NCBI GenBank assembly: GCA_017550765.1
Contig: JAFZOC010000081.1
Location: forward strand, 1-12,475
Source: Oscillospiraceae bacterium
GTDB lineage: Bacteria; Bacillota_A; Clostridia; Oscillospirales; Oscillospiraceae
DNA length: 12,475 nucleotides
Direction of reading: 5' to 3'
The notes under the pieces were generated by a model. It was not told where the DNA came from. It did not search any database and saw only the letters and a list, made by a program, of their open reading frames with translations. The position numbers and the translations under genes were made by a program. Below, piece by piece: positions 1 to 10,073 of this stretch (its first letter is position 1; every line of letters starts with the position of its first letter).

Positions 1-353
1 ACGGTCTCCTCGGTGGCCTTGAGACGTTTCCCGACGATGTCGCGGATCTGGGCCTCGAAGAGGTCCTTGTAGTCTCCGCGGATCATGCTCTGCCAGGTCG
101 CCTCTCTGTCCGGCGTGGCCGGCTGAGCCGGCTCAGTCTGCTCCCCGGCGGCGGGAGCCTCCTGCTTGCCGTACCGGACCTCGGCCAGCGAGGAGCGTTT
201 TGCGCCCTTGGTCTGCGGCTGGGCGGGTACCGCGCTCTCCTGCCCTGCGGGGCTCTCCCCGCTCATCCCCGCTCCGGTGCCGCCATCGCCGCCTCCGGCG
301 CCTTCGCCGAAGAGCTGGATGTCGAAGAGAGGACGCTCGTGCATGTCGATCAT
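1..353 (-). CDS. Phage scaffold protein, N-terminal part (cut by window edge)
   Basis: An open frame starts at ATG 353 and stays open for 117 codons to the window edge. GGAGGAGAT lies 3 bases before the ATG. The N-terminus carries the peptide PLFDIQLFGEG at residues 8-18, then a Gly/Ala/Pro/Glu-rich disordered stretch, then a charged segment with DYKDLFEAQIRDIVGKR near residues 93-109. That arrangement is typical of scaffold proteins in Bacillota phages, which assemble the procapsid with the coat protein and then leave. The [FL]-[ND]-[LI]-Q-x-F-[AG] peptide is the kind removed by Prp protease from L27 and from phage 80alpha scaffold and coat proteins. The Prp-like gene just upstream makes cleavage after QLFG plausible. 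Its position directly after portal and protease fits a scaffold; a coat protein sharing the same N-terminal motif is the main alternative. Confidence 0.75.
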   Translation of the reverse strand, partial: MIDMHERPLFDIQLFGEGAGGGDGGTGAGMSGESPAGQESAVPAQPQTKGAKRSSLAEVRYGKQEAPAAGEQTEPAQPATPDREATWQSMIRGDYKDLFEAQIRDIVGKRLKATEET

Positions 354-423
354 ACGATCTCCTCCTGCCCGTCAGGTGGGCGATCCCGTATATGTCAGCC
401 GGCTCCCGCCGGTCATGACCAGA

Positions 424-451
424 GTTCGTAGTGCGTAGTGCGTAGTTCGTA
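424..451. repeat. Four tandem GTKCGTA heptamers
   Basis: Four contiguous 7-base units read GTTCGTA, GTGCGTA, GTGCGTA, GTTCGTA. They lie in the 247-base gap between the protease gene and the scaffold gene, about 70 bases upstream of the scaffold start in the sense of transcription. Variant copies of the same CGTAG core recur at 491-495 and 532-543, where they flank palindromic modules. No open frame with a ribosome binding site covers the area. Confidence 0.8.
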
Positions 452-490
452 GAAAATGCGGAATTCGGAAGAGAACTCGCTGGATACCCC

Positions 491-570
491 GTAGGGGCGC
501 CCTCCGCTTCGCTCCGCCCTCGTGGTCGCCCGTAGTTCGTAGGGGCCCGGCCACGGGCTCCTCGGCGGCC
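491..570. repeat. Composite palindromic repeat block with GTAGGGG modules
   Basis: Module 1 (491-535) opens with GTAGGGGCG and closes with TCGCCCGTAG, so its ends are imperfect inverted repeats. Module 2 begins at 539 with GTAGGGGCC and forms a hairpin with arms 545-549 and 554-558 (GCCCG/CGGGC). The modules are joined by GTAGTTCGTAG, built from the same heptamer as at 424-451. From memory, blocks of this form occur between genes in many Oscillospiraceae-like genomes; that is recollection, not a search. The block occupies the only long non-coding gap inside the phage module. Confidence 0.55.
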
Positions 571-600
571 CGCATGGCTTCCCCGCGCACGGGGAAGCTG

Positions 601-963
601 TCAGCGCAGCTGACTGATGAGCTCCCCCGCGACCTCCGGTCTCGCGACGTGCTCCGGATAGCAGCCGGCCAGCAGCGACATCCCCGTCGCCACGAAGGCC
701 AGGGCGTGAAGGGCCTCGTCGAAGCGCTCCGGCCGCAGCTCCGCCAGCAGACGCATCCGGCCGCTGTCCACGGTCATCTGCATCTCGCCGCGCATCGCCC
801 CCTCCTGCTCCATGCGCAGCAGGAAGTCAAAGGCGGTGAAGGCCAGCGTGGAGGCCCCGGCGCAGACCGGGTCCGACCCGGGATCTGCGAAGCCCGCGTG
901 GCCGTCCATGTCCAGCAGGACCAGGCCTGCGCTCCTGTCGATCGCAAAGCGCGATCGGATCAT
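601..963 (-). CDS. prp: Prp-family ribosomal-processing-type cysteine protease, phage-borne
   Basis: A 120-residue protein of the Prp (YsxB) family, cysteine proteases that remove the N-terminal extension of ribosomal protein L27 in Bacillota. The signature is clear: MDGHAGFA at 19-26 and DPVCAGAS at 31-38 place the catalytic dyad at His22 and Cys34, the positions I recall for Staphylococcus aureus Prp. Prp enzymes are about 105-115 residues long, so length fits. ATG 963 was chosen because AAGGAG lies about 8 bases upstream and because longer readings of this frame run inside the portal gene. The gene sits between portal and scaffold, 77 bases after portal, so it is expressed with the head genes. 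Host Prp is known to cleave phage 80alpha scaffold and coat proteins; this copy probably matures the neighbouring scaffold, which carries PLFDIQLFGEG. Family assignment is firm; the substrate is inferred. Confidence 0.88.
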   Translation of the reverse strand: MIRSRFAIDRSAGLVLLDMDGHAGFADPGSDPVCAGASTLAFTAFDFLLRMEQEGAMRGEMQMTVDSGRMRLLAELRPERFDEALHALAFVATGMSLLAGCYPEHVARPEVAGELISQLR

Positions 964-4699: not shown

Positions 4700-4739
4700 T
4701 GTCATGGCGAGGAGGCCGAAGGCCGACGTGGCCATCCGT
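4700..4739. repeat. REP-like palindromic element, copy 2 (terS/terL gap)
   Basis: It shares the ends TGTCATGGCGA and GTGGCCATCCGT with copy 1 at 981-1023, including the outer pairing ATGGC/GCCAT. The inner part differs and forms a shorter GGCC-GAA-GGCC hairpin (4717-4727... arms 4715-4718 and 4721-4724 by exact reading). The element lies between the terS stop at 4750 and the terL ribosome binding site at about 4681-4687, the same placement as copy 1. Confidence 0.8.
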
Positions 4740-8018: not shown

Positions 8019-10073
8019 ATGAACGGGCTGAACGCGGATATCCGCGACTGTAAAGGGATAGGCGAGAAAAAGGCGCTGGCGCTGAATAAGCTCGGCGTCT
8101 TTGATCTCTTTGACCTTCTTTCCCATTTTCCCCGTCGCTATGAGGACCGGAGCGTATCCAAGCCGATCGCCCTGGCGATGGATGGCGAGAGCGTATGTCT
8201 GCACGCCATGGTGGCGGACACGCCGCGTCTGACCCGGATCCGCCGAGGTCTGGATCTGGTCAAGTTCCGCATCGTGGATGAGAGCGGCATGGCCGACGTC
8301 ACCTATTTCAACCAGTCCTACAGGAAGGACAGCATCCACAAGAGCGAGAGCTATATCTTTTTCGGCCGCATGGAGGTCAAGGGCTCTCACCGGAGCCTCG
8401 TCAATCCCGTCTGCGAACGGGAGGGGGCGAAAGACGGCGTCACAGGCTGCATCGTCCCGGTCTATCGGGTCTGTGCCGGCCTGACCCAGCGCGATCTCCT
8501 GCGCGCGATCCGCACGACGCTGGACGAGCAGCTGGACCGCATCCCGGACGTGCTGCCGGAGGATGTGCTCCGGCGGGAGCAGCTCTGCGCTGCGGCCTAT
8601 GCCTATGAGAACATCCACTTTCCCGCGAGCACCGGCGCCCTGGAGATCGCCCGCAGGCGTCTCATATTCGAAGAGCTATTCCTATTGGCCTGCGCGCTGG
8701 GGAAAACGCGCGGGAAGCGCGTGCGCGCCAGCAGCATCCCCCTGCAGCCCGTCGATCTCACGCCCTTCTGGGACTCTCTCCCCTTCGCGCCCACCGGCGC
8801 CCAGCTGCGCGCTGTCGATGGAGCGCTGGCCGACATGGCTTCCGGTCACGTGATGGACCGGCTCGTCCAGGGCGACGTGGGCAGCGGCAAGACCCTGGTG
8901 GCCGCCGCGCTCGTCTGGGCGACCTGGAAGAACGGGCTCTGCAGCGCCTTCATGGCGCCCACGGAGATCCTGGCCCAGCAGCATCTGGCCACACTGAGCG
9001 CCCTCCTGGCGCCTTTCGGCCTCCGCATCGGCTTGCTCACAGGCTCGATGCCCGCCAAGGAGAAGCGGGCCGTCAAGGCCGCGCTCCAGATGGGCGAACT
9101 GGACCTCATCATCGGGACCCACGCCCTCTTCAGCGAGGACGTGGGATACCGGGATCTGGGCCTCGTGGTCACCGACGAACAGCATCGTTTCGGCGTCGCC
9201 CAGCGCAGCGCTCTGATCAACAAGGGGAAACGTCCCCACGTCCTGGTCATGTCCGCAACGCCGATCCCGCGCACCCTGGCGCTGATCCTCTACGGCGATC
9301 TGGACGTGTCGATCATCGACGAGATGCCGCCCGGCCGGCAGAAGGTCGACACCTTCGCCGTGAACGAGAGCTATCGGGCACGCCTCAACGGCTTTATCCG
9401 CAAGCTCGCCGCGGAGGGGCGTCAGATCTTCGTGGTCTGTCCCATGGTGGAGGAGAACGAGGAGTTCCCGGAGCCGCTGAAGTCGGCGGAAGAACATGCC
9501 CAGGTCCTGGCCCGGGAGTTCCCGGAGCTGAAAGTCGGCTGCGTCCATGGGAAGATGCGGTCCAAGGAGAAGGACGCGGTGATGGCGTCTTTCGTCGCCG
9601 GGGAGACGGATATCCTGGTCTCCACCACGGTCGTCGAGGTGGGCGTTGACGTGCCCAACGCCGCTCTAATGGTGATCGAGAACGCGGAGCGCTTTGGCCT
9701 CAGCCAGCTCCACCAGCTCCGCGGCCGCGTTGGCCGGGGCAAGCACAAGAGCTGGTGCATCCTGGTCTCCGATGCGGATGGCGACGAGGTCCGCGCCCGG
9801 CTCGGCATCCTCTGCAAGACCAACGACGGCTTCAAAGTCGCGGAGGAGGATCTGCGTCTGCGGGGCCCCGGCGACTTCTTCGGCACGCGGCAGCACGGGC
9901 TGCCCGAGATGCACATCGCGGATCTAGGCGCGGACACCCAGATCCTGCAGCGCGCCCAGGACGCCGCCCTCGAGCTCCTTGCGGCGGACCCGGATCTCAG
10001 TCGGCCGGAGCATCGTGTCCTCCACGATCGTGTGGAGCAGCTCCTCGCGCGCAGCGCGGACACTTTCCACTGA
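8019..10073 (+). CDS. recG: ATP-dependent DNA helicase RecG
   Basis: A 684-residue branch-migrating helicase that remodels stalled forks, D-loops and Holliday junctions. The N-terminus has the helix-hairpin-type KGIGEKKALALNKLG and the HFPRRYEDRS signature, then the wedge (OB) domain that binds junctions. The motor follows with Walker A GDVGSGKT at 285-292 (Lys291), the DEQH box at 386-389, SATPIPRTL, and late motifs VVEVGVDVPNA and QLRGRVGRG. LRGPGDFFGTRQHG near the end is characteristic of RecG. Length compares with 693 in E. coli, so the gene is complete. GGAGTGA precedes the ATG, and the gap to apbE is 3 bases. It ends the operon at the bidirectional terminator. Apparently a housekeeping gene read from the reductase promoter, unless an internal promoter exists. 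Confidence 0.97.
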   Translation: MNGLNADIRDCKGIGEKKALALNKLGVFDLFDLLSHFPRRYEDRSVSKPIALAMDGESVCLHAMVADTPRLTRIRRGLDLVKFRIVDESGMADVTYFNQSYRKDSIHKSESYIFFGRMEVKGSHRSLVNPVCEREGAKDGVTGCIVPVYRVCAGLTQRDLLRAIRTTLDEQLDRIPDVLPEDVLRREQLCAAAYAYENIHFPASTGALEIARRRLIFEELFLLACALGKTRGKRVRASSIPLQPVDLTPFWDSLPFAPTGAQLRAVDGALADMASGHVMDRLVQGDVGSGKTLVAAALVWATWKNGLCSAFMAPTEILAQQHLATLSALLAPFGLRIGLLTGSMPAKEKRAVKAALQMGELDLIIGTHALFSEDVGYRDLGLVVTDEQHRFGVAQRSALINKGKRPHVLVMSATPIPRTLALILYGDLDVSIIDEMPPGRQKVDTFAVNESYRARLNGFIRKLAAEGRQIFVVCPMVEENEEFPEPLKSAEEHAQVLAREFPELKVGCVHGKMRSKEKDAVMASFVAGETDILVSTTVVEVGVDVPNAALMVIENAERFGLSQLHQLRGRVGRGKHKSWCILVSDADGDEVRARLGILCKTNDGFKVAEEDLRLRGPGDFFGTRQHGLPEMHIADLGADTQILQRAQDAALELLAADPDLSRPEHRVLHDRVEQLLARSADTFH

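Follow-up and report, generated by a model that had tools for sequence, protein, structure and literature searches.

Prp is studied as an essential ribosome-processing enzyme and a drug target of the Firmicutes, and through Staphylococcus phage 80alpha it also became known as a host factor in the building of phage heads. The scaffold and coat proteins of 80alpha share an N-terminal site resembling that of ribosomal protein L27 and cut after Phe (excerpts of PMC5744158 and PMC9405229), and it is established that the enzyme responsible is the Prp of the host (PMC5744158, in excerpt). Streptococcus phage Cp-1 encodes a protease of the same family (MEROPS C108/clan CR) that cuts the N-terminus of its major head protein (excerpts of PMC12445089 and PMC9405229). 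The locus considered here lies on a stretch of 12,475 nucleotides from an Oscillospiraceae bacterium (contig JAFZOC010000081.1; hereafter the window), which gene annotation resolves into a prophage edge on the minus strand joined to bacterial chromosome. Its gene at 601-963 (minus strand) in all likelihood encodes a Prp-family (C108) protease for phage head maturation that trims a predicted scaffold and, very probably, the major head protein too. Prp would be made from the late head operon and would cut the product of the next gene, the predicted scaffold, after the Phe of [N/D/F][L/I]Q-L-F↓[A/G] (the arrow marking the cut), taking off its N-terminal propeptide, and very probably trims the major head protein, encoded next, likewise; both the cutting and its timing in the procapsid are presumed steps.

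The prp open reading frame (963-601) is complete, encodes 120 amino acids and follows GGAAGGAG, which resembles a ribosome-binding site. Its product matches Pfam PF04327 (2.9e-10; 40.7 bits, the cut-off being 27), the sole Pfam family found for it at E up to 0.001, and PHROG 4478, 'peptidase' (8.5e-10); its matches to the NCBIfam Prp equivalog models are weak and fall well short of the cut-offs. Serine prohead proteases are the HK97 and lambda types, and the Pfam search, at E up to 0.001, found no domain of that kind in the product. The initial annotation, made from the sequence alone, had proposed a complete 120-residue Prp homologue with His22 and Cys34 between portal and scaffold, an assignment that PF04327, PHROG 4478 and the gene's position confirm, and the Prp alignment and structure prediction it had put forward as a check agree. 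His22, Asp31 and Cys34 coincide with the S. aureus Prp numbering (PMC9405229, in excerpt), and among 116 non-redundant phage Prps His22 and Cys34 are kept in all and Asp31 in 108. The AlphaFold2 model, built on a 51-sequence alignment, has a pLDDT of 91.7, with a loose loop at residues 21-30 (64), and together with Foldseek displays the Prp fold with a flexible loop by the active site. Foldseek gives a probability of 1.00 against 2idl, 7jvs, 7kld, 2g0j, 4peo and 1s12, and its top 14 rows are all Prps, from S. pneumoniae, S. mutans, S. aureus (both free and peptide-bound) and Thermotoga (TM1457; 1s12), all named as such in excerpts of the review PMC9405229. A sequence-profile search of solved structures returned four sequences, all of Firmicute Prps (2idl, 2g0i, 4peo and 7jvs). 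The S. aureus Prp (PDB 4PEO, 7KLD, 7JVS), which processes ribosomal L27, is like the window Prp in fold (query-normalised TM 0.57-0.66), catalytic residues and size, with 18-24% identity in structural alignments. A protein search also found the window Prp on 3 contigs, the longest of 18,338 bases. Across the 13 pairs of related phage prp genes tried, dN/dS lies between 0.04 and 0.43; the phage gene is under purifying selection in these relatives.

The gene after prp starts at 353 and leaves the window at 3 (minus strand), and the N-terminal 117 amino acids of its product, beginning MIDMHERPLFDIQLFGEG, match PHROG 13908 (3.9e-8). Full-length relatives of this protein constitute PHROG 13908, annotated as of 'unknown function', and its designation here as a scaffold is a prediction from its position in relatives, behind Prp and ahead of the major head protein; no match emerged when its profile was compared with scaffolds annotated in three cultured phages (probability 3.4%), and a profile search of solved structures was likewise negative (best E 0.16). 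The protein bears a Prp-type site, ...PLFDIQLF↓GEG, with HERPLFDIQLFGEGAG as the predicted target peptide. The initial annotation had read the sequence PLFDIQLFGEG correctly, and its placement of the cut after QLFG, with loss of the first 17 residues, is amended: judged from the corresponding sites of L27 and 80alpha (F↓A), cleavage is expected after F15 and before G16. Also on the strength of the motif statistics and relatives, the predicted propeptide is MIDMHERPLFDIQLF (309-353, minus strand), whose removal would take off 15 residues, or 12 if Met4 is the start. The window phage's own head-protein gene lies beyond the window, and its product would, judging from relatives, carry a Prp-type site as well, its short propeptide being predicted to end in [D/N/F]IQLF↓A. 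The window prp stands in a head module, which is one part of what defines a phage-encoded C108 head protease of the Cp-1 type, a head-protein substrate being the other, and not between rplU and rpmA like the ribosome-processing Prp of hosts.

This arrangement recurs widely. A portal search of viral contigs yielded 153 relatives, of which 80 loci were kept, and a profile search of genome contigs yielded 88 prophage loci, of which 80 were kept. Prp follows the portal in 73 of the 80 viral loci (gap of at most 150 bases in 67 of the 73, up to 591 in the others) and in 72 of the 80 prophage loci (gap of at most 151 bases in 71 of the 72). Of the seven viral loci without Prp, six stop immediately after the portal and the seventh, L055, continues with other genes; among the eight such prophage loci, L103, L121 and L147 stop just behind the portal match and L153 is masked. 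True absences of Prp, with scaffold and head protein both visible, are confined to L129-L131 and L148. Behind Prp, relatives have a PHROG 13908 protein followed by the major head protein, of PHROG 1357, as seen in the five proteins checked and one fusion. Related cassette prophages also occur in metagenome-assembled genomes (MAGs) of non-Firmicutes, titled Candidatus Treponema caballi (L113) and uncultured Bacteroidales (L140), which may reflect either mis-binning or wide host jumps.

The N-termini of the scaffold and the major head protein of these relatives carry the site x[L/I]Q[L]F↓[A/G]. On a position-specific motif score, 219 of 267 real N-termini of both proteins exceed 8, compared with none of 267 shuffled ones. 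Training used these same N-termini, which favours the real ones, and the set contains near-copies; chance was set aside as an explanation of the sites on this comparison. Among 100 non-redundant phages or loci with both genes visible, an automatic rule found a site on both substrates in 70. The rule missed long open frames and drifted sites, and the count rose to 83 after 13 rows were set by hand, nine of which have at least one site outside the pattern of the rule, and to 88 after a recheck. This recheck added six head-protein sites (L014, L056, L105, L123, L128 and L133), five of which completed a pair, and brought the Prp-bearing relatives with a site on the head protein from 91 to 97 of 100.

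The two sites often appear to drift together. Within 20 Prp clusters of the 70 automatic rows, scaffold and head-protein motifs agree beyond permutation at P6 (p = 0.03), P5 (0.003), P4 (0.02), P2 (0.004) and P1 (0.03), with no excess agreement at P7 or P1', and within 11 looser clusters all positions from P6 to P1 reach 0.05. Phylogeny-independent pairs on a portal tree of 83 phages change in the same direction, with 4.0 same and 0.1 opposite of 7 at P2 and 2.6 same and 0.0 opposite of 5 at P4. Paired drift is displayed by FIQLF with FIQLF, YIQIF with FIQIF (L008), CLQLF with CLQLF, NPQLF with NAQLF, and SLYLL↓E with SLYLL↓D (L119). The P3 Gln has been lost from both substrates in L134, L135, L138, L141 and L152, and in a group titled Ruminiclostridium or Eubacterium the scaffold has DLCRF↓D or DLCQF↓G and the head protein NLRQF↓D, DLRQF↓D, CLDQF↓D or CLTQF↓D.

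The relatives truly without Prp display a different pattern of sites. L129-L131, which are close kin, have a scaffold site of ISLQFF↓A or IGLQFF↓A, close to that of host L27 (ISLQFF↓AHKK in the two hosts read), and a head protein without a site; the genomes of L130 and L131 hold one Prp, that of the host, and in the genome of L129 neither L27 nor Prp was found. In L148 both proteins are without a site. The head-protein site is thus found in 0 of 4 Prp-less loci, compared with the 97 of 100 given above. The head protein of L148 (3476-3818) starts MSEPNTNVTT, about where those of Prp-bearing relatives would start after the cut.

In one sublineage titled Ruminiclostridium or Eubacterium, Prp and the predicted scaffold are joined in one open frame (L134, L135, L138 and L141, with a partial example in L142 cut by the contig end), a fusion that ties Prp physically to the scaffold. 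The fused product of L141 matches the PHROG 4478 peptidase at 1-105 and PHROG 13908 at 195-316, with PF04327 at 1-102. The joint is variable save for DLC[R/Q]F, kept in five of five, and is predicted to be disordered (residues 111-142 at pLDDT below 50, in a model that is of low confidence as a whole, at 65.5). The fusion suggests release by self-cleavage. Such fusions would also be compatible with a structural role, in which Prp is an assembly chaperone or scaffold-binding part and the motif a docking peptide, with cutting incidental or absent, and in 80alpha it is the N-terminus of the scaffold that is needed and not its cleavage (excerpts of PMC5744158). This reading is nevertheless unlikely, as the catalytic His and Cys are invariant in 116 of 116 Prps, the motif agreement spans P6 to P1 and not P1', as for the non-prime pocket of a protease, and the head protein of one of four Prp-less relatives (L148) begins near the post-cut start of the others.

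The question of which Prp does the cutting bears on the host. Among 48 prophage-bearing genomes searched, an L27 match was found in 43 and the L27 locus was read in 42. A host Prp stands beside L27, with a phage copy elsewhere, in 27 of the 42, and their L27, where readable (seven were unread), has an extension such as LKLSLQFFAHKKG. In one further genome (G029) the locus ends at a contig edge. In the other 14 (G001-G004, G006-G011, G017, G020, G032 and G036), L27 starts MAHKKG and rplU adjoins rpmA with no space for Prp; all 16 Prp matches of these genomes are at phage loci, 15 at L081-L091, L097, L099, L105, L119 and L124, and one, in G003, at L265, behind a portal. Excerpts of PMC9405229 describe species with long L27 as having Prp, and the L27 table there lists an N-terminal extension for every Firmicute shown and none with a short L27; E. 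coli K-12 is given there as lacking Prp. The loci at which L27 of Clostridia genomes was seen without the extension are L167, L168, L170-L174, L176, L178, L179, L181, L190, L193, L196 and L271-L299, the first 14 with rplU and rpmA adjacent and no space for Prp.

The host of the window phage can be placed by the open reading frame at 8019-10073 (plus strand), which is taken to be the host recG. Among the 46 of 48 genomes with a match, RecG of the window is best matched by G004, G007, G010, G006, G009, G017, G001, G020 and G002 (63-76%), all nine with short L27 and no host Prp. Of the remaining short-L27 genomes, G011, G032 and G036 are distant, at 43-44%, and no RecG was found in G003 or G008, so that the short-L27 trait is found in several lineages. 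Within the genus of G004, RecG identity rises to 78%; a Prp match is present in 58 of 102 genomes and absent from 44, all 29 further L27 loci read are short, starting MAHKKG, and the 30 Prp loci read, of 62 matches, are all among phage genes, 27 with a portal just upstream. Of 150 genomes sampled from the wider family, 72 show a Prp match. The host of the window phage thus probably has a short L27 and no chromosomal Prp, and in a host group of this kind the phage enzyme would have neither a host substitute nor a ribosomal substrate.

These observations weigh on two further explanations. Were the host Prp to do the cutting, as in 80alpha, the phage copy would be redundant or a dosage aid, a state of affairs that the 27 genomes with both enzymes would permit and that the L27-like scaffold sites of the Prp-less L129-L131 recall; it becomes quite improbable in view of the 14 genomes in which L27 is short, rplU and rpmA leave no space for Prp and every Prp match is at a phage locus; the window RecG groups with nine of these genomes. 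Since L27 is cut by members of the family and FlhB has been proposed as a substrate (PMC9405229, in excerpt), the phage Prp might alternatively target mainly host L27 or FlhB and so reshape translation or motility. This carries hardly any probability: the L27 of short-L27 hosts has no site, the gene stands in a head operon, and the motifs of the phage substrates drift with each other. A protease brought by the phage for its own head proteins accords better with the data. The initial annotation had already proposed such a self-contained maturation cassette, which gene order, motifs on both substrates, concerted drift, fusions and purifying selection now support, and its further suggestion that head maturation is independent of the host enzyme is backed as well and is extended, as the likely host group seems to be without a chromosomal Prp.

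Phage and host Prps are largely separate in a tree of 60 thinned phage rows and 27 host rows, whose labels need 2 changes compared with 23 in shuffles, although 43 of its 83 inner branches are unresolved. Recent capture of a host Prp by this phage lineage was set aside on this count. The exceptions are the Prps of two Lactococcus phages, which lie among those of hosts and suggest a separate entry into phages, and a host Prp (L201, in a MAG titled Treponema) on a long branch among phages. A broader and decidedly speculative history may be sketched, in which the chromosome of a genus-sized group of Clostridia shed Prp along with the L27 extension, such that Prp persists only as a viral enzyme, its specificity no longer tied to the ribosome and drifting with its two phage substrates; in other hosts of this phage lineage the site loses its P3 Gln, and one sublineage makes a self-releasing protease-scaffold precursor. 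The shedding may have been favoured as a means of starving phages that borrow the host enzyme, from which phages with their own would escape. As a whole this history is more doubtful than probable.

Several observations count against trimming of both proteins by a phage Prp in a Prp-less host. In the final tally the site is confined to the head protein in 9 of 100 loci and missing from both proteins in 3 of 100, and in L115 and L118 the motifs are mismatched, with xLTLFG and xLQLFA, the T replacing Q on the scaffold only. No position reaches 0.05 when the permutation is confined to 46 tighter clusters, and the phylogeny-independent pairs, though almost never opposite in direction, are too few, with p of 0.05 seen at no position (P3 aside). 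Thirteen of the 14 short-L27 genomes that carry these prophages bear titles of MAGs or uncultured assemblies, and the L27 and Prp content of the window's host is deduced from one gene, RecG. Lastly, 80alpha with an uncleavable scaffold or coat is a viable phage (PMC5744158, in excerpt), and by analogy trimming may matter little to the phage discussed here. Regarding the genomes, Cuneatibacter sp. NSJ-177 (L124) has a short L27 and is not titled a MAG, and binning loss is therefore not the sole explanation. Separately, seven loci with a site on the head protein only (L151, L154, L156 and L157-L160; for example DFLQRFA, IDLQRFA and DYIQHFA) were observed to have a shorter predicted scaffold without the site.

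The remainder of the window completes the head module and its junction with the chromosome. Along the direction of transcription on the minus strand, the small terminase subunit (5439-4750; PHROG 1206, 1.8e-7) is followed by the large terminase subunit (4677-3121; PF03237, 2.8e-14; PHROG 979), a P22-like portal protein (3131-1041; PF16510, P22_portal, 3.3e-30; PHROG 156, 6.1e-75), Prp (963-601) and the predicted scaffold from 353. A tRNA-Arg gene (CCG anticodon label of ARAGORN; 5812-5736, minus strand) separates the phage genes from those of the host. Genes for tRNA are a usual kind of prophage integration site, and this one, with the phage on its 3' side, is a possible example. Short, hairpin-like intergenic repeats (TGGCCAC...GCCATGAC) occur on the minus strand before prp (982-1018) and between the terminase genes (4701-4734), and a ACTACGCACTACG repeat lies between prp and the scaffold gene (434-446, minus strand). 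Among the other loci compared, the ACTACGCACTACG type was seen in L084 only and the TGGCCAC...GCCATGAC type in none; the repeats resemble interspersed repeats of the chromosome that have moved into the prophage.

Both phage-encoded C108 proteases and heads cut by Prp are already known, from Cp-1, 80alpha and annotations of Lactococcus and Oenococcus phages. Three of seven matching phage records, Lactococcus phages TP712 and PLgT-1 and Oenococcus phage Krappator149, have a Prp-type gene after the portal and N-L-Q-[L/R]-F sites on scaffold and head protein alike, the head protein of TP712 having NLQRF↓S, and gp4 of Krappator X27, the same gene by gene order, is called a 'putative maturation head protease' in excerpts of PMC12403621. 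By gene content these three phages fall outside the P22-like portal lineage, and the Lactococcus Prps lie on the host side of the tree. Searches of open-licence papers brought to light no earlier mention of the cassette, a fusion of Prp to scaffold, the concerted drift, Clostridia without the L27 extension or a phage-only Prp in a group of Clostridia. What is new here is a widespread, self-contained cassette of Prp, scaffold and head protein, probably in a Prp-less host. It offers paired variants of enzyme and substrate for reading the specificity of Prp and, as an experiment of nature, a way to ask what head-protein trimming is for, and its fusion proteins bear on how the protease enters the procapsid. 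Compared by description only, Cp-1 removes about 40-48 residues (excerpts of PMC12445089 and PMC9405229), whereas the present phages belong to a P22-like portal lineage with short L27-type sites, two substrates and scaffold fusions. Phage 80alpha, with its similar sites, uses the protease of its host, whereas here the protease is phage-encoded and the host probably has none, and these phages thus appear to split the two roles of Prp, with one lineage of the enzyme serving virus heads, partly in hosts that have no Prp of their own.
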